Shown here: in pieces, positions 7,886 to 16,437 of the stretch
Numbering within the stretch: the first letter of the stretch is position 1
How the letters are laid out: each line of letters opens with the position of its first letter
IMG/VR virus record: IMGVR_UViG_3300047496_000074
Span: 1 to 32,592 of that record
Strand: one strand, 5' to 3'
Length of the DNA stretch: 32,592 nt
Source: a virus
Translations under genes and position numbers: made by a program
Notes under the pieces: generated by a model
What the model saw: the letters and a program-made list of their open reading frames with translations, nothing else
What the model was told of the DNA's origin: nothing
The model's database searches: none

Positions 7886-9572
7886 ATGGCAACTACAACT
7901 GCTGCCCAGGGGTCAAACCCAGGTCTTACGCAGACTATGCAGATTTATTATGACCGCGTCTTCTTGACGCGCGCCATGATTGAATTGCGCCACGACTTCG
8001 GTGCCCAGGTACGCCCTGTCCCGATGAACGCTGGTATTGACTTGCCAGCCCCGACAGTAATGTCGGTCATAAAGTCGTGGTTTACGGTTGTAATGTTGCC
8101 ACAAATGTGCTAAACTAAACTTCGCTATATGCTGGAAACTCCAGTCAAGCAAGGGGACTTATTAGGTAACACTCCCAAGTTATGGACAATCAGCAGGAAA
8201 CTCTATATATCGCGGGTCTATTCGAGGGCGAGGGAAGTATCCAGATAAACAAAATACTTGTTTATGGAAAAATACTTCAGTATCGACAGGCCGTGCAGTT
8301 CACCAATACCGAGCCAGAGATAGCGCAGAGGTTTGTAGACTATCTAAAGGCAAATGGTTGGAACTACCACGTCCACATAGACAAGCGTGAGAACAAAAGC
8401 AGGCTGTGCTACGGAGTTACAATCACGAAACTCAAAGACAGACAGGCTTTTCTTGAGAGGATGTATCCGCACTTCGTAGGTAAGAAGCGCAGAGAATCAG
8501 AACTTTCTCTCAAGTTCCTTCAGCTCCGACTAGCTCTTGAGAACCCACACGAACGCAGTAAGACAAATGGGCGATTCCTACCAAATGTCTCCTCGTTCGA
8601 TAAAGAGCAAATAGGATTGTATGAAGAGTTCAAGAAGATAAGAGGCTCCCCAGAGACTACACGCGAAGCTCCTATACAGATAGGATGAAGATATAGTCCG
8701 AACTTCCTAAGAGACTAGGAGATAACATACTGAAGTCTATCGCATGGACTCGTTTCACCCCGCTCGCAGTCGTCACGGCAGCTCTCTCTGAAGGCGCAAA
8801 TCCTTCGGCAGTAGATATGTCCGCAACCCAGGTTTCTGCAACCCTTTCAGAGTATGGTGCGTACACGACTGTTTCTTCGCTCTACTCGATGACTTCCATC
8901 GAGACGGGCCTCAAGGAGCACATCGAGGTACACGGCCAGAACGCTGGAGAGTCTATCGACCAGCTCATCCGCACCGAACTTGCGACCAATGCTACGGCAG
9001 CCCTCGCTCAGTTCCCGTCGGGTGCAGCAGCCGCATCGACTTTCTCCAACATCCACACCACTGACACGCTTACTGGCCTTGAGATTCGCCGTGCAGTCCG
9101 CACGTTGAAGAACAACAAGGCACAGAAGTTCGACAATGGTTTGTACCGAGGCATCCTTGGCCCTTATGTAGCTATGGACCTTATGGGCAACTCTGAATGG
9201 CTGGATGCTCACCGCTACACCACGTCCGATGCTATCGAGCGCGGTGTCGTTGGTAAGCTCCACGGTGTCGAGTTCGTCGAATCCAACAACCAGTACGTCG
9301 TACTGTCGACTGGCTTCTCGACCTCCGCAACGAACGTCGCAGACACCTACGTCACCTTCATCTTCGGCAAGAACGCCTATGGCGTTGTCAATCTCGCCTC
9401 TATCACTGCACCGAAGGTGTATGTGAAGAATCCGAGTGGCAACTCCACGGATAACCCTCTCGACCTCTTCTCAACCGTTGGTTGGAAGATGCCGTTCGCG
9501 GTTAAGACCCTCAACACCGCCTTCATCGTCGGTATTGCAACGGGTGCTACTGATGCGTTCCGCGCCTCGTAG
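7886..9572 (+). CDS. major capsid protein, N4-gp56 family, interrupted by a group I intron
   Basis: Spliced gene: exon 1 7886-8035 (50 codons) and exon 2 8733-9572 (279 codons plus stop), giving 329 aa. Joined, the reading frame passes from ...RPVPMNAG into KSIAWTRFTPLAVVTAALSE, then SATLSEYGAYTTVSSLYSMT and a C-terminal GKLHGVEFVESNN. This matches the N4-gp56 capsid family (HK97 fold). Without splicing, exon 1 reads into the intron and stops after 75 residues. Exon 2 alone would have to start at an internal ATG (8817) and would lack a conserved part of the fold. The leader before ATG 7886 is A-rich with no Shine-Dalgarno site, surprising for the most expressed virion gene. A strong hairpin follows the stop. 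Confidence 0.88.
8036..8732 (+). ncRNA. group I intron (697 nt) in the major capsid gene
   Basis: Self-splicing intron supported by base pairings I can trace. P1: exon GCTGGT (8030-8035) with guide GCCAGC (8044-8049), placing the required U-G pair at the 5' splice site. P10: GACTT (8039-8043) with exon 2 AAGTC (8733-8737). P2: CCGACA/TGTCGG (8051-8066). P3: CTTCGC (8120-8125) with GCGAAG (8663-8668). P4: GCTG (8131-8134) with CAGC (8191-8194). P7: GACTA (8655-8659) with TAGTC (8694-8698), inside the classic R and S boxes (S box AAGATATAGTCC). P8: TCCTAT/ATAGGA (8670-8685). P9: TCCTA/TAGGA (8705-8720). The terminal G is 8732. Subgroup is probably IA, not settled here. Confidence 0.92.
8182..8688 (+). 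CDS. intron-encoded LAGLIDADG homing endonuclease
   Basis: The 168-aa protein carries one LAGLIDADG-type motif at residues 10-19 (IAGLFEGEGS), with Glu17 at the position of the metal-binding acid. It continues with the typical ITNTEPE-like segment (FTNTEPEIAQRFVDYLKANG). A single motif implies a homodimer. The expected role is cutting intron-less capsid genes so that repair copies the intron; it might also help folding. The gene overlaps the ribozyme. The ATG lies just before the P4 3' strand, and the last codons cover P7, P3 and P8 with the stop TGA just before the S box. The same bases are thus constrained as both RNA core and protein. No clear Shine-Dalgarno site. Confidence 0.88.
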   Translation: MDNQQETLYIAGLFEGEGSIQINKILVYGKILQYRQAVQFTNTEPEIAQRFVDYLKANGWNYHVHIDKRENKSRLCYGVTITKLKDRQAFLERMYPHFVGKKRRESELSLKFLQLRLALENPHERSKTNGRFLPNVSSFDKEQIGLYEEFKKIRGSPETTREAPIQIG

Positions 9573-10122: not shown

Positions 10123-10420
10123 AACACCAGGAGTGATGACTGCCAAAGAGTTCGAGAAGGTGATTAAGAAGCTCGACAAGCGGTTCAGCGTCTCTGACAA
10201 CTTGAATCGCCCTGGCCTCACAAACATCTACTTCGATGGGATGAACTACGACTTGCCCGTTATCGCAACGCATAACATTAAGGAAGAGATAGATCTCTCA
10301 TACCGCTATGAGTTCCCGAATGGTATGCGCCCACGCCACCACACCCAGAGTGAAGTAATAGATAGCCTTAAGAAGTTCCTGAAGGACTATGAGAACGGGG
10401 TCTACAAAGACCATGACTAA
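10112..10420 (+). CDS. hypothetical protein, 102 aa
   Basis: Not recognised. The 102-aa product mixes helical, charged stretches (TAKEFEKVIKKLDKRFSVSD; SEVIDSLKKFLKDYENGVYK) with a central aromatic segment (GLTNIYFDGMNYDLPVIATH). It overlaps the previous gene by 11 bases and the dehydratase gene by 8 bases, so it sits at the junction between head genes and the sugar island. No catalytic or membrane motif is seen. Confidence 0.6.
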   Translation: MATKTPGVMTAKEFEKVIKKLDKRFSVSDNLNRPGLTNIYFDGMNYDLPVIATHNIKEEIDLSYRYEFPNGMRPRHHTQSEVIDSLKKFLKDYENGVYKDHD

Positions 10421-11423
10421 AGCGCTGCTAACGGGAGCGGGCGGTGCAATAGGGGTCCACCTGCTTATACATATCTTCGATAACACCGACTGGGATGTCG
10501 TCGCCACGGACTCGTTTAGGCATAAGGGCTACCCAGACCGCATCTCTATGCTCCTAGACGCACACCCCGATTGGCGACCTCGCCTTACGACTATCGTCCA
10601 CGACCTCAACGCGCCGTTCACATCTCGGGAATTGAACCAGATGGGGGAGATAGACTACATCATCAACCTAGCCTCCATCTCTGATGTACAGGCCTCTATA
10701 GATGACCCTGTACCCACAGTACGCAACAATGTGGAGCTGATGCTTAATATGCTTGAGGCAGCCAGGACTCTAAAGCCTAAAGCATTCCTGCACTTCTCGA
10801 CCGACGAGGTATATGGAGCCGCAGAAGGTAATTCTAAAGGGCATAAGGAGTGGGCAACTATCCTGCCCTCTAACCCGTACTCTGCTTCTAAGGCGGCACA
10901 AGAGGCTCTCGCAATCGCTTGGTGGAGAACCTACGGTGTCCCAGTTATCATCACCAACACAATGAATAACTGGGGTCAAACCCAAAGTTCCTCTAAGTTC
11001 CCTGCGATGATTCAAAACAAGATAGAGAATGATGAGACCATAAGAGTACACGTCTCTCCTAATGGAGAAATTGGAAGCCGTTATTACATTCACTCCAGAA
11101 ATGTCGCCGATGCAGTTCTGTTTATATTGAAGAAAGAGCCGACTATGCATTCTCCTGGCGAAATGGACAGACCAGACCGCTACAACATTGTGGGCGATAA
11201 GCAGATAAACAATTTGGAGTTAGTTGAGACTATCGGGGAGTTGATGGGCAAGAAGCCCAAGTATGAACTAGCACAATTCCACGATAAAAATCCAGGGCAC
11301 GACCTCCATTATGGGCTGGACGGCACTAAACTGTCCGAGATGGGCTGGAAAGCCCCAGTTGACTGGAAGCAAAGCCTCAAGGATGTCATTGATTGGCAAC
11401 AGACTCATCCCGAGTGGATTTGA
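10413..11423 (+). CDS. NDP-sugar epimerase/dehydratase (SDR), 4,6-dehydratase-like
   Basis: 336-aa extended SDR enzyme acting on a nucleotide-diphosphate sugar with NAD. Visible features: the dinucleotide-binding glycine motif TGAGGAIG at 7-14, STDEVYG at 129-135 (the Asp-Glu pair is characteristic of RmlB-type 4,6-dehydratases), and the catalytic Tyr156-x3-Lys160 in YSASK. A C-terminal sugar-binding region follows (SRYYIHSRNVADAV; RYNIVGDKQINNLE). ATG 10413 is used rather than an in-frame upstream start at 10389, because it begins at the Rossmann strand. The product would be a 4-keto-6-deoxy sugar, substrate for the aminotransferase encoded downstream. No nucleotidyltransferase is present, so the NDP-sugar must come from the host. 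Confidence 0.85.
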   Translation: MTKALLTGAGGAIGVHLLIHIFDNTDWDVVATDSFRHKGYPDRISMLLDAHPDWRPRLTTIVHDLNAPFTSRELNQMGEIDYIINLASISDVQASIDDPVPTVRNNVELMLNMLEAARTLKPKAFLHFSTDEVYGAAEGNSKGHKEWATILPSNPYSASKAAQEALAIAWWRTYGVPVIITNTMNNWGQTQSSSKFPAMIQNKIENDETIRVHVSPNGEIGSRYYIHSRNVADAVLFILKKEPTMHSPGEMDRPDRYNIVGDKQINNLELVETIGELMGKKPKYELAQFHDKNPGHDLHYGLDGTKLSEMGWKAPVDWKQSLKDVIDWQQTHPEWI

Positions 11424-11829
11424 GCTTAATGTCGTAATTCTTATGGCACGAAACACACAAAGGGATGTAATCGCAGACAAGACGACGATACTTGCCGTCA
11501 ATGTTAGCCCACTGAATGAAACGGGGACGGGTATCAACCTTGCTACACTCACCGCACTTCGTAGGTTTACCGAGCCTGCGCATAAGCCACTGGTGCAGAC
11601 CCCGATAGCCAACACCATCTCCCTTCCAAGCATAGTGAGCAGTACCAGTCGGCTGGTTCTTAGCAATAGACTTTTGGCCTTTCTTGAATCTATTAGCTTC
11701 TCCATTCTTAGCAAGTTCCGCGTTGCGTACTACCGCATAGCATTCTCTACTACAGAAATTGCGCGGTTGTACATGGGATGGACTCTTGGAGAACGCTTTG
11801 GAGCAATTGTCGCAGTTTATTTTAGTCAT
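11386..11829 (-). CDS. HNH homing endonuclease with zinc finger (antisense to island)
   Basis: 147 aa from ATG at 11829, preceded on the minus strand by AGGGGG, one of the few Shine-Dalgarno-like sites here. An in-frame ATG at 11865 would add 12 residues. N-terminal Cys6-x2-Cys9 and Cys26-x3-Cys30 form a zinc finger. The C-terminal HNH core shows CGEC (92-95), WANIDGKYRRL with Asn109, and IPLCVSCHKNYD with Cys125, Cys128 and His129. It lies between the dehydratase and glycosyltransferase genes in the opposite direction, and its 3' end overlaps the dehydratase by 38 bases. It is a free-standing mobile gene, not interrupting a reading frame. The antisense frame covering it on the plus strand is a shadow. 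Confidence 0.82.
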   Translation of the reverse strand: MTKINCDNCSKAFSKSPSHVQPRNFCSRECYAVVRNAELAKNGEANRFKKGQKSIAKNQPTGTAHYAWKGDGVGYRGLHQWLMRRLGKPTKCGECSKVDTRPRFIQWANIDGKYRRLVCDYIPLCVSCHKNYDIKLKSTRDESVANQ

Positions 11830-11870
11830 ACCCCCTATTATAGGAGCAATAACGGAGAAATGCAACTAAT

Positions 11871-12716
11871 ATGAAAGCCACTCGTATATTCTTCCTACCT
11901 TGGGGCGACGAGAACATAGCGAGCAGTAGACTCCGTGTGTACAAGCCGATGAAGTACATGAAGGCATCTCTTATCTTGCCTAAGAAGTATAAGAAGGGAG
12001 ATGTGCTCATCATCCAGAAAGCTCTACGACCAGATGAGATGACCAAAGCTCAAGCTCAAGGGGCTAAAGTCATCTACGACATAGATGATAACTATATGGA
12101 CCAGCGGGAGTTCGTGCAGATGTGCGAAAACGCTGACCTCGTTACCGTAGGTTCCTCCTACTTCCACAGGTACTTCCCCGACGCTCCCGTCATAGATGAC
12201 TCCCTAGATTGGGACGGCGTACACAAGAAGAAGAAAGGTAAAACAAACCTCGTCGGGTGGCACGGTTACGGCAATCACGCCTTCATAGAGGGCATCTCAA
12301 GCGTATTAGAGCGTAGAGGCTACCGAATCCGCACCATCGTAGGCAAAAGCTACATGCAGAACTATGAGCAGTACGATGCTAAGGAGTGGACACTCAAGAC
12401 GGTGGATAAAGACCTGGCCGAGTGTGATTTATGCGCTATCTACCTTGAACTTGACGACTTCTCACAGGCGAAGGGCATGAATAAGCTCATTAAGGCATGG
12501 GCTATCGGTATCCCAGCCTTTGTCTCCTATAACCCAGAGTATGACCGTGTCTTCAGGGAGTCTGGTATCACAGGGTTTATGGTACGAAACTGGGACACCC
12601 ACGACCTCTCTAAGCCTTGGACACCTGCGATGCGTACTTACGCGCTCAAGTTTCACCCGAAACAGATTGCTAAACAGTGGATGGCTGCTATAAAACTCGT
12701 CAATGCCAAAAAATAA
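11871..12716 (+). CDS. glycosyltransferase, GT-B-like
   Basis: The 281-aa protein is similar in build to the 382-aa glycosyltransferase at the end of the island. Both contain an (V/L)IYDIDDNY motif (here about residues 64-73) followed by a segment testing for a second domain (ADLVTVGSSYFHRYF). The C-terminal half has a nucleotide-sugar-binding flavour (NLVGWHGYGNHAFIEGISSV; KGMNKLIKAWAIGIPAFVSY). A GT4-like enzyme transferring a sugar from an NDP donor is the best reading. Its start is 41 bases from the divergent HNH gene, and it overlaps the methyltransferase by 14 bases. Confidence 0.72.
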   Translation: MKATRIFFLPWGDENIASSRLRVYKPMKYMKASLILPKKYKKGDVLIIQKALRPDEMTKAQAQGAKVIYDIDDNYMDQREFVQMCENADLVTVGSSYFHRYFPDAPVIDDSLDWDGVHKKKKGKTNLVGWHGYGNHAFIEGISSVLERRGYRIRTIVGKSYMQNYEQYDAKEWTLKTVDKDLAECDLCAIYLELDDFSQAKGMNKLIKAWAIGIPAFVSYNPEYDRVFRESGITGFMVRNWDTHDLSKPWTPAMRTYALKFHPKQIAKQWMAAIKLVNAKK

Positions 12717-13185
12717 GACAGTATTGCGGCTTGGTGCTGGTGAGGAGCCTAAAAAGAAGGGCTACTTGAACGTGGACATTCGAGACTTGCCTACCACGGA
12801 CATTATCGCTGACATCCGCAAACTACCTTTCAAGACCGGAGAGTATGGGGGAATCGAGAATAGGAATGTTATAGAGCACTTTGACCGATTCGAGGTACTT
12901 CCGCTCCTCAAGGAATGGATACGGGTAGTAAAGAAAGGCGGTACAGTCTTAATAGAGACCGTAGACGCAGGTAAGTGCATGGATATGTGGCGTTACATCC
13001 CAGAGGAGAACTTGAAAGATGCTTTGTTAGGCCAACAGACATACCCCGAGAACTACCACAAGATGTTTTTCACCGAAGAGAGTCTTGCCCAGCTTATGAA
13101 AGACGCGGGAGTCCGTGTATCGGGAGTCCAGAGCTTTAATCATCGCCAGATACCTAGAATGATTCTCCATGGAAAGAAAGATTAA
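12703..13185 (+). CDS. SAM-dependent methyltransferase, class I
   Basis: 160-aa Rossmann-fold methyltransferase. The SAM-binding motif is LRLGAGEEPKKKGYLNVDIR (about 8-27), followed by IIADIRKLPFKTGEYGGIEN and RNVIEHF, a common post-motif pattern in sugar and lipid methyltransferases. It is shorter than most class I enzymes (usually over 200 aa) but complete in core elements. It overlaps both neighbours (14 and 17 bases). In this context the substrate is probably the hydroxyl or amino group of the island's sugar; this is inference. Confidence 0.78.
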   Translation: MPKNKTVLRLGAGEEPKKKGYLNVDIRDLPTTDIIADIRKLPFKTGEYGGIENRNVIEHFDRFEVLPLLKEWIRVVKKGGTVLIETVDAGKCMDMWRYIPEENLKDALLGQQTYPENYHKMFFTEESLAQLMKDAGVRVSGVQSFNHRQIPRMILHGKKD

Positions 13186-14146
13186 CCTATTCGAGACCGT
13201 CCCTACGGGAACGGAGATAGACGCAATCAGAGAAGTCCTCGATTCTCATTGGTGGGGTTCGGGGAAGAAAGCCCGCGAGTTTGAGGATAAGTTTGCTGAA
13301 TATGTAGGTGCAAAGTATGCGATAGCGACTAATTCTTGTACTTCTGCCCTTGATATCGCAGTGCAGGTCGCGCCTCTGGGTGAAGAAGTGTCTGTAAGCC
13401 CGTTCACCTTCGTCTCCTCGGCTCTAGCAATCCTGCGGGCTGGTAAAAAGGTCAAGTTCGTGGATATAGACACTAAGTCGTACTGCACTCCTAATGCTGA
13501 TATCCAAGTCCTCTATGCTGGAAATGACTCTGGCGAAGGAATTATCTACGATATGGCGCACTTCGGAGGCGGTAAGCACAAGGGGTTAATCTCTTGTTGG
13601 TCTTTCCAGGCTCGCAAGAACCTCCCGACAGGCGATGGAGGTATGATAACGACCAACGACGAGGCTCTATACAAGCGGATGAAGGCACTTTCATGGTGTG
13701 GAATCGACAAAAGCACCCTAGACCGCTCGAAAGATTCATATTCGTGGGACTACGACATCCAAGAAGTAGGCTTTAAGGCAGATATGACTGACATTGTGGC
13801 TACGATAGGACTCGAACAGCTCAAGTTCTTAGACATAAACAATAAAAAGCGCGCGCAGATAGCCTCTTGGTACGATATTCACCTGCCGACACATGTGGAA
13901 CGACCATTCAGGTCGACGACGTGGCATTTGTACACGATTCAAGTACCGAATCGGGACGAATTGTATAAGAAACTAGCTGAAAACGGCGTATCGGCTGGAA
14001 TACATTATAAACCGCTCTATAAATACCCCATCTTCCCGCAAGAAGTCCTGCCGAACACCGAAAGTGTCTTCCAACACATCCTAAGCCTCCCAATGCACGT
14101 CAATCTCGATGAGGAGCAAGTCAAATACGTATGCAGTCTGATTTAA
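13169..14146 (+). CDS. DegT/DnrJ/EryC1/StrS-type sugar aminotransferase
   Basis: The 325-aa PLP enzyme is expected to convert a 4-keto (or 3-keto) sugar to an amino sugar, normally with glutamate as donor. Evidence: the N-terminal SHWWGSGKKAREFEDKFAEY, the GAKYAIATNSCTSALDIA cofactor region, Asp128 in IYDMAHFGGG, and SFQARKNLPTGDGGMITTND with Lys150 as Schiff-base lysine. The middle of the fold (about 100-130) is compressed, and the protein is about 40 residues shorter than typical relatives. It forms a natural pair with the dehydratase at 10413. It overlaps both neighbouring genes (17 and 16 bases). Confidence 0.85.
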   Translation: MERKINLFETVPTGTEIDAIREVLDSHWWGSGKKAREFEDKFAEYVGAKYAIATNSCTSALDIAVQVAPLGEEVSVSPFTFVSSALAILRAGKKVKFVDIDTKSYCTPNADIQVLYAGNDSGEGIIYDMAHFGGGKHKGLISCWSFQARKNLPTGDGGMITTNDEALYKRMKALSWCGIDKSTLDRSKDSYSWDYDIQEVGFKADMTDIVATIGLEQLKFLDINNKKRAQIASWYDIHLPTHVERPFRSTTWHLYTIQVPNRDELYKKLAENGVSAGIHYKPLYKYPIFPQEVLPNTESVFQHILSLPMHVNLDEEQVKYVCSLI

Positions 14147-14820
14147 TCGTCTACACCTCCATAACGGGCGGTAAGGACACCCCGGTAGAGGCTCAAAATT
14201 GGGGCAAGGCGCACTGGATTGCGTTTAATGATAAACCACTAGACTCGGCCGTATGGGAGCGCAGAGAGGCGTATAATCGCTTCAAGGACGATAGAAGGAA
14301 CTCTAGAGCACCAAAGATACTCGCCCACCAGTTCTTAGACACCAAGTACAGCATTTGGATCGATGGGAACTGCTCTCTTTTACGACCCCCAGAGGAGTTG
14401 ATAGAGAAATACCTCATCGACCACGACATCGCGGTATTCAAGCACCCCGAGAGAGACTGTATTTATGGGGAAGCTATCAAGTGTGCTAAAGCAGGACTCG
14501 ACGACCCTGAAGTAATCATTGAGCAGGTATCTGCCTATGAGAAACGCGGATACCAGAAAGAGAAAGGACTCTGCGAGTGCATGATGATAATGCGCCGACA
14601 CACGAGAAAAGTAGAAGAGTTCAATAACGCCTGGTTTTCGGAATGGACACGACATTCTGTACGCGACCAAATCTCTTTCATGTACGCTGCGGATAAGGTG
14701 GGGATACGGGTACGAGTGATAGACCTTCCGTGGCACTTGGCTTCCGATGGCCTTGCAGGACTGCGAGGGAACTTCTTTAAGATAGAACCACATATTATTT
14801 CTAACCCTACAGTCCTATGA
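14131..14820 (+). CDS. DUF616-type glycosyltransferase
   Basis: The 229-aa protein shows the DUF616 pattern: YTSITGGKD at the start, a central segment DDRRNSRAPKILAHQF, and YSIWIDGNCSLLRPPEELI, in which the DGN acid is the likely nucleotide-sugar/metal site. It also has FKHPERDCIYGEA and DQISFMYAADK downstream. DUF616 proteins are bacterial, phage and plant glycosyltransferases. It overlaps the aminotransferase by 16 bases and the HNH gene by the ATGA arrangement. Substrate unknown. Confidence 0.75.
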   Translation: MQSDLIVYTSITGGKDTPVEAQNWGKAHWIAFNDKPLDSAVWERREAYNRFKDDRRNSRAPKILAHQFLDTKYSIWIDGNCSLLRPPEELIEKYLIDHDIAVFKHPERDCIYGEAIKCAKAGLDDPEVIIEQVSAYEKRGYQKEKGLCECMMIMRRHTRKVEEFNNAWFSEWTRHSVRDQISFMYAADKVGIRVRVIDLPWHLASDGLAGLRGNFFKIEPHIISNPTVL

Positions 14821-15299
14821 GGAGAATAATCAGCGGGAAACGGGTATGTACCATTTGCAAAGTGTCGTATTCTCGTAAACCGAGGACAACTATCGAGCAG
14901 TGGGACAAGAGTAGATTCTGCTCTATCAAGTGCAAGAGTACAGCCCAGAAAGAGGAGAATAGGGGTAGGAAGCATGCCATTGAGACCCGTGAGAAGATGC
15001 GGAAGTCGGCTAAGAAAGGTAAGGAGTCTCACTTATGGCGCGGAGGAGTTACTGGGCATCTGCGGAACCTGCGTAACTCGGTAGAGTACAAATTGTGGCG
15101 GGATGCTGTATACGCAAGGGATAATTGGACTTGTGTATGGTGCAATAAGCGTGGATGTGTATTGCAAGCCGACCACATCAAACCTTTTGCTTACTTTCCT
15201 GAACTAAGATTTGCTATCGATAATGGGCGAACACTCTGTGTTCCGTGCCACTTAAAAACTGATACTTATGGCGAACGCGCCAAACAAATATATGGCTAA
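14817..15299 (+). CDS. HNH homing endonuclease with NUMOD3-like region
   Basis: 160 aa with an N-terminal zinc finger (Cys11-x2-Cys14, Cys35-x3-Cys39). A NUMOD3-like DNA-binding motif follows (GRKHAIETREKMRKSAKKGK, about 50-69), then a complete HNH core: RDNWTCVWCNKRGC, ADHIKPF with Asp119/His120, Asn136, and CVPCH (141-145). The expected activity is site-specific nicking or cutting to spread the gene. It is co-directional, starts within the stop of the DUF616 gene (ATGA) and ends 8 bases into the next gene, so it is integrated into the operon without breaking it. The ORF is intact. Confidence 0.85.
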   Translation: MRRIISGKRVCTICKVSYSRKPRTTIEQWDKSRFCSIKCKSTAQKEENRGRKHAIETREKMRKSAKKGKESHLWRGGVTGHLRNLRNSVEYKLWRDAVYARDNWTCVWCNKRGCVLQADHIKPFAYFPELRFAIDNGRTLCVPCHLKTDTYGERAKQIYG

Positions 15300-16437
15300 A
15301 CTTTTACTTCACTTCACTGATTTCAACCATCGTCCCGAGCGACGTAAGGCCAATACTTTCGGTGCGCTAGGCTATTACCGTACCTTTAAGCCCTCACAGA
15401 TAATCAAAGGCCATCAGGTAGACGTGGTAGGGACAGATATAGTCAATTACGGCTCTACCTTCGAGAAGAATTGGGAGAATATCTTTAAAAAGTACGACAT
15501 CGTATGGATAATGCACTTCCTAAATGAGCAGAACGCTGCCGCACAAGCCTACTTCGCTGACAAGTACAAGAAGAAGCTCATCTATGACATCGACGACAAC
15601 TACCTCGATGTCCCTGAGAGCAACCCTGTCCATAAGGATTTCGCCCCCACTAAGCGGAACAGAGCTATCCTGTCTGCCTCGTTCTTCTTCGCAGACGCTC
15701 TTACTGTCTCGACAGAACCTCTCAAGGAACGCCTCCAAGCGCATTTCAGACATGTACACGGGGTAGAAAAGCCTATGTTCATCGTGCCGAATATGAACGA
15801 TGTGAAGGACTGGGACTTCAAGCCCCGGGCGAAGCGTAAGGACAGGATAACGATAGGCTACTCTGGGTCTAATTCCCACAAGGATGACTTGCGGATGTTC
15901 TTCCCTGTACTGGCGAAACTGATGAAGAAACATAGCAATCTGTACTTCGAGTTCATAGGGTCAATTCCTAAAGAGGAACTTCCCGACTACTTGAGGGGAT
16001 GCGGATTCACTGATGCGTTGCTAGACCGCGTCGCTGGCCTGCCTGCCACACCGACATTCTGGGAGTACCCGCAGTATCTTGCACAACAGCGATGGGATGT
16101 AGGCGTCGCACCTCTTGTAGATTCCTCGTTCACTCGTTGTAAAAGCCACATAAAGTGGATGGAATATGCGATGTACAAGATTCCCGTGGTGGCGTCTAGG
16201 GTCTATCCATACTTCATGGAACTTGAGGGACGACAGACCATAACCGATGATGAGACTGGATTCTTAGCAACAACTCCCGATGAATGGTACGAAAAACTCG
16301 AAGCCTTGATTAAGAGCGAGTCCTTGCGAAAAAAGATAGGTGAACAGGGATACCAGCATGTAAAAGACAACTGGCAGTACAAGGATTATGACCTTAATAA
16401 AGTGGTAGACAAGATACTAGCTCTACCTAAGAAATAA
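15292..16437 (+). CDS. glycosyltransferase family 4-like (GT-B)
   Basis: 381 aa from ATG 15292; an in-frame ATG at 15268 would add 8 residues and overlap the HNH gene further. The N-terminal Rossmann domain begins MAKLLLHFTDFNHRPERRKA and contains KLIYDIDDNYLD. The C-terminal donor-binding domain begins near ITIGYSGSNSHKDDLRMFF and has FEFIGSIP and a CKSHIKWMEYAMYKIPVVAS segment, where GT4 enzymes place the nucleotide-sugar acid. It ends with the typical LIKSESLRKKIGEQGYQHVK helix. It is a full-length relative of the 281-aa enzyme at 11871 and is the last gene of the island. Confidence 0.82.
   Translation: MAKLLLHFTDFNHRPERRKANTFGALGYYRTFKPSQIIKGHQVDVVGTDIVNYGSTFEKNWENIFKKYDIVWIMHFLNEQNAAAQAYFADKYKKKLIYDIDDNYLDVPESNPVHKDFAPTKRNRAILSASFFFADALTVSTEPLKERLQAHFRHVHGVEKPMFIVPNMNDVKDWDFKPRAKRKDRITIGYSGSNSHKDDLRMFFPVLAKLMKKHSNLYFEFIGSIPKEELPDYLRGCGFTDALLDRVAGLPATPTFWEYPQYLAQQRWDVGVAPLVDSSFTRCKSHIKWMEYAMYKIPVVASRVYPYFMELEGRQTITDDETGFLATTPDEWYEKLEALIKSESLRKKIGEQGYQHVKDNWQYKDYDLNKVVDKILALPKK

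Follow-up and report, generated by a model that had tools for sequence, protein, structure and literature searches.

Among the described systems, the td intron of phage T4 resembles the element analyzed here in being a group I intron whose P6 loop holds an endonuclease ORF that reaches P7 at its end (PMC3073962, PMC2988022). For td/I-TevI, interference of ORF translation with ribozyme folding has been shown (PMC3073962, PMC2988022). The T4 endonuclease is, however, a GIY-YIG enzyme, and its ORF overlaps the core only at the 3' end, by about 20 nt, leaving P3 and P8 uncoded. In the 23S rRNA intron of Synechococcus lividus, a LAGLIDADG ORF shares 81 nt with P6/P7/P3/P8 and beyond (PMC3073962 Table 1), whereas its host gene encodes rRNA and the ORF is listed as inserted in P8 (PMC3073962). 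The overlaps tabulated in the same paper are 9, 56, 61, and 81 nt. In terms of host gene, mycobacteriophage LittleE carries a probable group I intron with a LAGLIDADG-like ORF in its major capsid gene, and splicing of this intron was confirmed by RT-PCR and protein sequence; the ORF, however, lies on the opposite strand, and both the capsid family and the insertion site differ from ours (PMC3706429). The lactococcal phage Tuc2009 is cited in PMC3706429 as having a probable group I intron in its major capsid gene. Finally, the 23S rRNA introns of CPR bacteria, including that of I-ShaI, are comparable by type and length, as group I introns with single-motif LAGLIDADG enzymes and a length of 691 nt, but reside in an rRNA host (PMC11270868).

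The window, a 32,592-nt viral contig (IMG/VR record IMGVR_UViG_3300047496_000074), contains on its plus strand an N4-gp56-like major capsid gene in which bases 8036–8732 are, as read from the sequence, a group I intron of 697 nt. We put the probability at roughly 95% that this is a mobile group I intron with a LAGLIDADG endonuclease in its P6 loop, which interrupts the capsid gene, self-splices, and carries an ORF both ends of which have grown into the ribozyme core. The unspliced capsid frame, opening at 7886, encodes 75 aa and is terminated by a UAA at 8111–8113 within the insertion. Exon 1 (7886–8035, residues 1–50, ending PMNAG) closes with GCTGGT at 8035, the intron closes with G8732, and exon 2 (8733–9572) opens with AAGTC and matches the PHROG 1357 major head protein (E = 1.8e-45). 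When 8035 is joined to 8733, an unbroken protein results (MATTTAAQG...PMNAG|KSIAWTRFTP...), as the initial annotation had proposed, and the two exons encode one protein in intronless relatives.

The observed insertion can be placed exact to the base, in agreement with the boundaries first proposed. The predicted joined flanks, CCGATGAACGCTGGT|AAGTC, are the exact DNA found in close intronless relatives, three of which (L002, L003, and L004) contain the uninterrupted sequence CCGATGAACGCTGGTAAGTC, letter-for-letter equal to the predicted spliced junction. These empty sites fix both intron ends. Across 47 capsid loci recovered by protein search, the site is uninterrupted wherever it is covered, with the exceptions of L005, the one other locus with an intron at the identical site, and L026, which carries a different intron.

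The helices proposed from the sequence are borne out by compensating changes in L005, the one same-site relative, in P1, P10, P2, P3, P8, and P9. P1 (8030–8049) pairs GCUGGU (8030–8035) with GCCAGC (8044–8049) and places a U·G pair (U8035 with G8044) at the splice site; its counterpart in L005, read by eye, is AGCGGU/GCCGCU. The P10 guide GACUU (8039–8043) pairs with AAGUC of exon 2 (8733–8737), and in L005 both sides have changed to GGUUU/AAAUC (again by eye), indicating that the intron guide tracks its exon. The splice-site U·G pair, the terminal G8732, and P10 are all present here and all kept in L005. P2 (8051–8066, CCGACA/UGUCGG by fold) and P9 (8704–8721, UUCCUA/UAGGAG by sequence) correspond to CUAC/GUAG at the same place and to CUUUGCA/UGCAAAG in L005, respectively.

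The fold of the core is observed by covariation, in that P3, P4, and P5 covary across about 25 related introns. In a set of 26 introns that were selected by their R and S boxes and the J3/4-P4 motif, P3 not being consulted, the two P3 strands (CUUCGC at 8120–8125 with 8663–8668) pair at 5.88 of 6 positions, as compared with 3.94 ± 0.18 for shuffled partners and 4.5 for the best of 2000 shuffles. P4 (UGCUG at 8130–8134 with 8191–8195) is paired in 24 of 24 introns with two matched pair types. P5 (UCCA at 8140–8143 with UGGA at 8183–8186, the latter sharing U and G with the start codon of the ORF) reaches 3.54 of 4 pairs against 2.58 ± 0.13 when shuffled (24 introns). Of 24 relatives, 23 have a predicted hairpin at the P8 position (8669–8686 here). 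P7 shows no variation among the sampled introns, as the search pattern demands, and hence provides no covariation support. Together with the Rfam match below, these data reveal a conserved P3-P4-P6-P7-P8 core with R and S boxes.

A covariance-model search, which had been suggested as a check of the fold, identifies Intron_gpI (RF00028) as the sole Rfam family in the region (45.7 bits, E = 3.1e-10), slightly under the gathering cut-off of 50 bits; at the default gathering thresholds, the Rfam search returned nothing in this region. The 430-nt ORF that lengthens P6 probably lowers the score; the ORF-less introns L056 and L059 score 65 to 66 bits. The Rfam alignment sets P3' and the 5' strand of P7 (the R box) on LAGLIDADG codons near 8224, a placement that was rejected, as P3 covariation puts the R box at 8652. 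Comparison with L005 and with L056 and L059 places the R box at 8652–8663 and P3' at 8663–8668, with the R box directly before P3' and P8, and the near-complete native pairing of P3 supports this position. The R-box segment (8652–8668) thus comprises GACUA of P7 (8655–8659) and GCGAAG of P3 (8663–8668), and the S box, GAAGAUAUAGUCC at 8687–8699, supplies the 3' strand of P7, UAGUC (8694–8698). Subgroup IA looks unlikely, as the stretch between P7 and P3 gives no indication of P7.1/P7.2.

The intron ORF (8182–8688, plus strand) encodes 168 aa with the body in the P6 loop and both ends in the core, and its family is observed to be that of the single-motif LAGLIDADG homing endonucleases. It matches Pfam LAGLIDADG_3 (E = 3e-8) and, when searched as a family profile, I-MsoI, I-CreI, and I-AniI in the PDB. 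Its AlphaFold2 model (mean pLDDT 84.5) has the helix-strand-strand-helix-strand-strand-helix order of the LAGLIDADG fold, and I-CreI structures are the top Foldseek hits of this model (E = 1.6e-7). The motif reads IAGLFEGEG (residues 10–18), with G16, E17, and G18 nearly invariant among 23 relatives. Residues 151–168 have pLDDT values of 56–66, and this C-terminal tail is probably disordered as judged from the model. Outside the core, comparison with L005 gives dS = 1.46 and dN = 0.16, indicating that the endonuclease is kept under purifying selection. Synonymous change amounts to 7 of 17.7 sites in the overlap as compared with 57 of 88.8 elsewhere, a difference that, for one sequence pair (Fisher p = 0.065), is suggestive only.

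Elsewhere in the window, two NinG-like ORFs are found at 971–1432 and 14817–15299 (Pfam NinG, E = 1e-12 and 3.5e-7), the second within a phage sugar gene cluster (10389–16437) that includes genes for an NAD-dependent epimerase/GDP-mannose dehydratase-like protein, a methyltransferase, a DegT aminotransferase, and two glycosyltransferases. A 159-aa ORF on the minus strand (11389–11865) runs antisense to a 187-aa ORF in the otherwise plus-strand cluster; it has cysteine pairs and appears HNH-like by eye, with no Pfam match.

Starting at 8182 in P5', the endonuclease ORF runs through P4' and P6 (8191–8198, CAGCA followed by GG, within the codons Q-Q-E), loops out, and returns via P6', the 5' strand of P7, P3' (the R-box codons E-T-T-R-E), and P8 to the UGA at 8686–8688. 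By our count, roughly 60 core bases double as codons. The initial annotation had the frame open ahead of P4' and close just short of the S box, crossing P3', P7, and P8, which is correct, and P5' and P6 are covered too. It had also taken the depth of this overlap as a tight evolutionary constraint; the view of the overlap as something exceptional is not supported, as overlaps are common in the family. A viral pattern scan for R and S boxes, counting all loci gathered, yielded at least 103 distinct introns, and, among the matches listed, an ORF of at least 80 aa extends across the R box (a read-through ORF) in 47 of the 103. The ORFs were called mechanically and may include frames that are not genes. 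The R box is read as ETTR in 29 of these 47 ORFs, as RDYT in 9, and as QRLH in 9; many continue past the S box as EDIV, and many related ORFs begin M-D-N-Q-Q at the same P4 codons (all among the matches listed). Of 44 read-through ORFs scanned from the same matches, 26 contain LAGLIDADG_3 and 18 LAGLIDADG_1, sets that may overlap. A related capsid-gene intron (L058:3570-3990) has an 88-aa P6-loop ORF that lacks a LAGLIDADG motif by eye and has the same tail from the core, SETTREALLTY, at its end.

That homologous endonucleases read the tail in different frames indicates that the tail follows the RNA. With three frames among relatives and low model confidence here, the tail sequence is taken to be set by the RNA, and the protein seems to tolerate it. 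Both ORF ends would have extended into the core (core creep), so that MDNQQ at the start and ETTREAPIQIG at the tail would be provided by the core. By analogy with td, competition between translation and folding, raised in the initial annotation, is plausible in this intron, the more so because the start codon sits in P5.

It is improbable that the overlap is an annotation artefact of a real intron, in which the endonuclease would start or end within the P6 loop and the protein ends encoded by the core would not be made. Such artefacts in predicted ORFs are cautioned against in PMC3073962, and the tail is modeled with low confidence and is frame-variable among relatives. However, the next in-frame stop is the UGA at 8686–8688, so the 3' overlap follows once the ORF is translated at all; at the other end, the first helix begins at residue 4 and the LAGLIDADG motif at residue 10, so that a later start could hardly be accommodated, and many relatives likewise have MDNQQ. 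A role of the endonuclease as a maturase that aids the folding of its own intron, with translation and folding cooperating rather than competing, is in our estimate equally unlikely. Maturase-like activity of a LAGLIDADG protein has been reported for a Thermotoga 23S intron (PMC3984707), and the known endonuclease-maturase I-AniI is among the profile matches, but the fold comparison ranks single-motif enzymes of the I-CreI type highest, and the same ribozyme has relatives with no ORF (L056 and L059). Hardly credible is a dead relic, i.e., a broken capsid gene on a contig that stems from a defective phage or from chimeric assembly: splicing here is deduced rather than observed, but the splice-site pairings are intact, the exon changes are compensated in L005, the endonuclease is intact with low dN/dS, and the same arrangement is found on independent contigs.

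The reading of a self-splicing mobile intron, drawn from this anatomy and from established knowledge of such families, would operate as follows. The RNA would fold, P1 and P10 at the exon ends would guide self-excision, and the joined exons would give a normal capsid mRNA. In mixed infections, the endonuclease, of homodimer type, would probably cut intronless capsid alleles at GGT|AAG, and the intron would be copied in.

The sporadic occurrence of the element is likewise observed. Both intronless and intron-bearing capsid alleles are found among the relatives, and in a capsid tree with 30 members, three gains or losses are needed to account for the three intron carriers, two of these events being forced by well-supported branches; this scatter fits the expectation for a mobile element. 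A second, independent LAGLIDADG group I intron (L026:906-1650) interrupts a related capsid gene at about residue 72 with its own P1 (GAAGCU/GGCUUC by eye) and P10; it gave no Rfam match even at E = 1. A scan with the exact P4-P5 core pattern matched only the contig of L005, and among cultured phage genomes, neither the DNA nor the ORF retrieved a match.

For 50 introns (L001-L169, among the matches listed), the downstream exon was of sufficient length for a scan; 37 of these exons encode major head proteins of several PHROG families (one of these, L059, inferred from family counts), none encodes a terminase large subunit, and the others include one GroEL-like and one RecJ-like exon. As IMG/VR may be enriched in contigs with hallmark genes, which bears on this capsid share, a preference of the introns for capsid genes is not proven by these sequence counts. 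In bacterial genome contigs, a read-through ORF is present in 21 of 117 introns, and 29 of 117 lie, by a rough count, near at least three 23S motifs; these matches share the ORF ends DNQQER... and ...SSETTR. The genome contig loci with this R/S-box intron type (L174-L292) are mostly from Patescibacteria (CPR), with a few from Agromyces and Microbacterium, and some lie near 23S rRNA motifs.

Capsid-gene introns are already known from LittleE and Tuc2009; the present locus adds a well-supported example, and its overlap of ORF and core is the usual design of a widespread mobile intron. A wider view, which we hold to be possible but doubtful, is that one intron family, shared with bacterial genomes including their 23S rRNA, has spread into major capsid genes across many unrelated families of capsid, in preference to other phage genes, with endonucleases that recruit both ends from the ribozyme core: a start codon in P5, hidden by the folded ribozyme, and a tail from P7/P3/P8 in any of three frames. 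If true, folding would turn the homing gene off without an extra hairpin. The single locus matters little, but at least 103 viral introns of one core type, with the tail in three frames, constitute a natural data set for the published core-creep idea, and the same set could test whether the RNA, not the protein, fixes the tail residues. Should an unbiased survey uphold the capsid bias, this would add something new to what is known of the location of phage introns.
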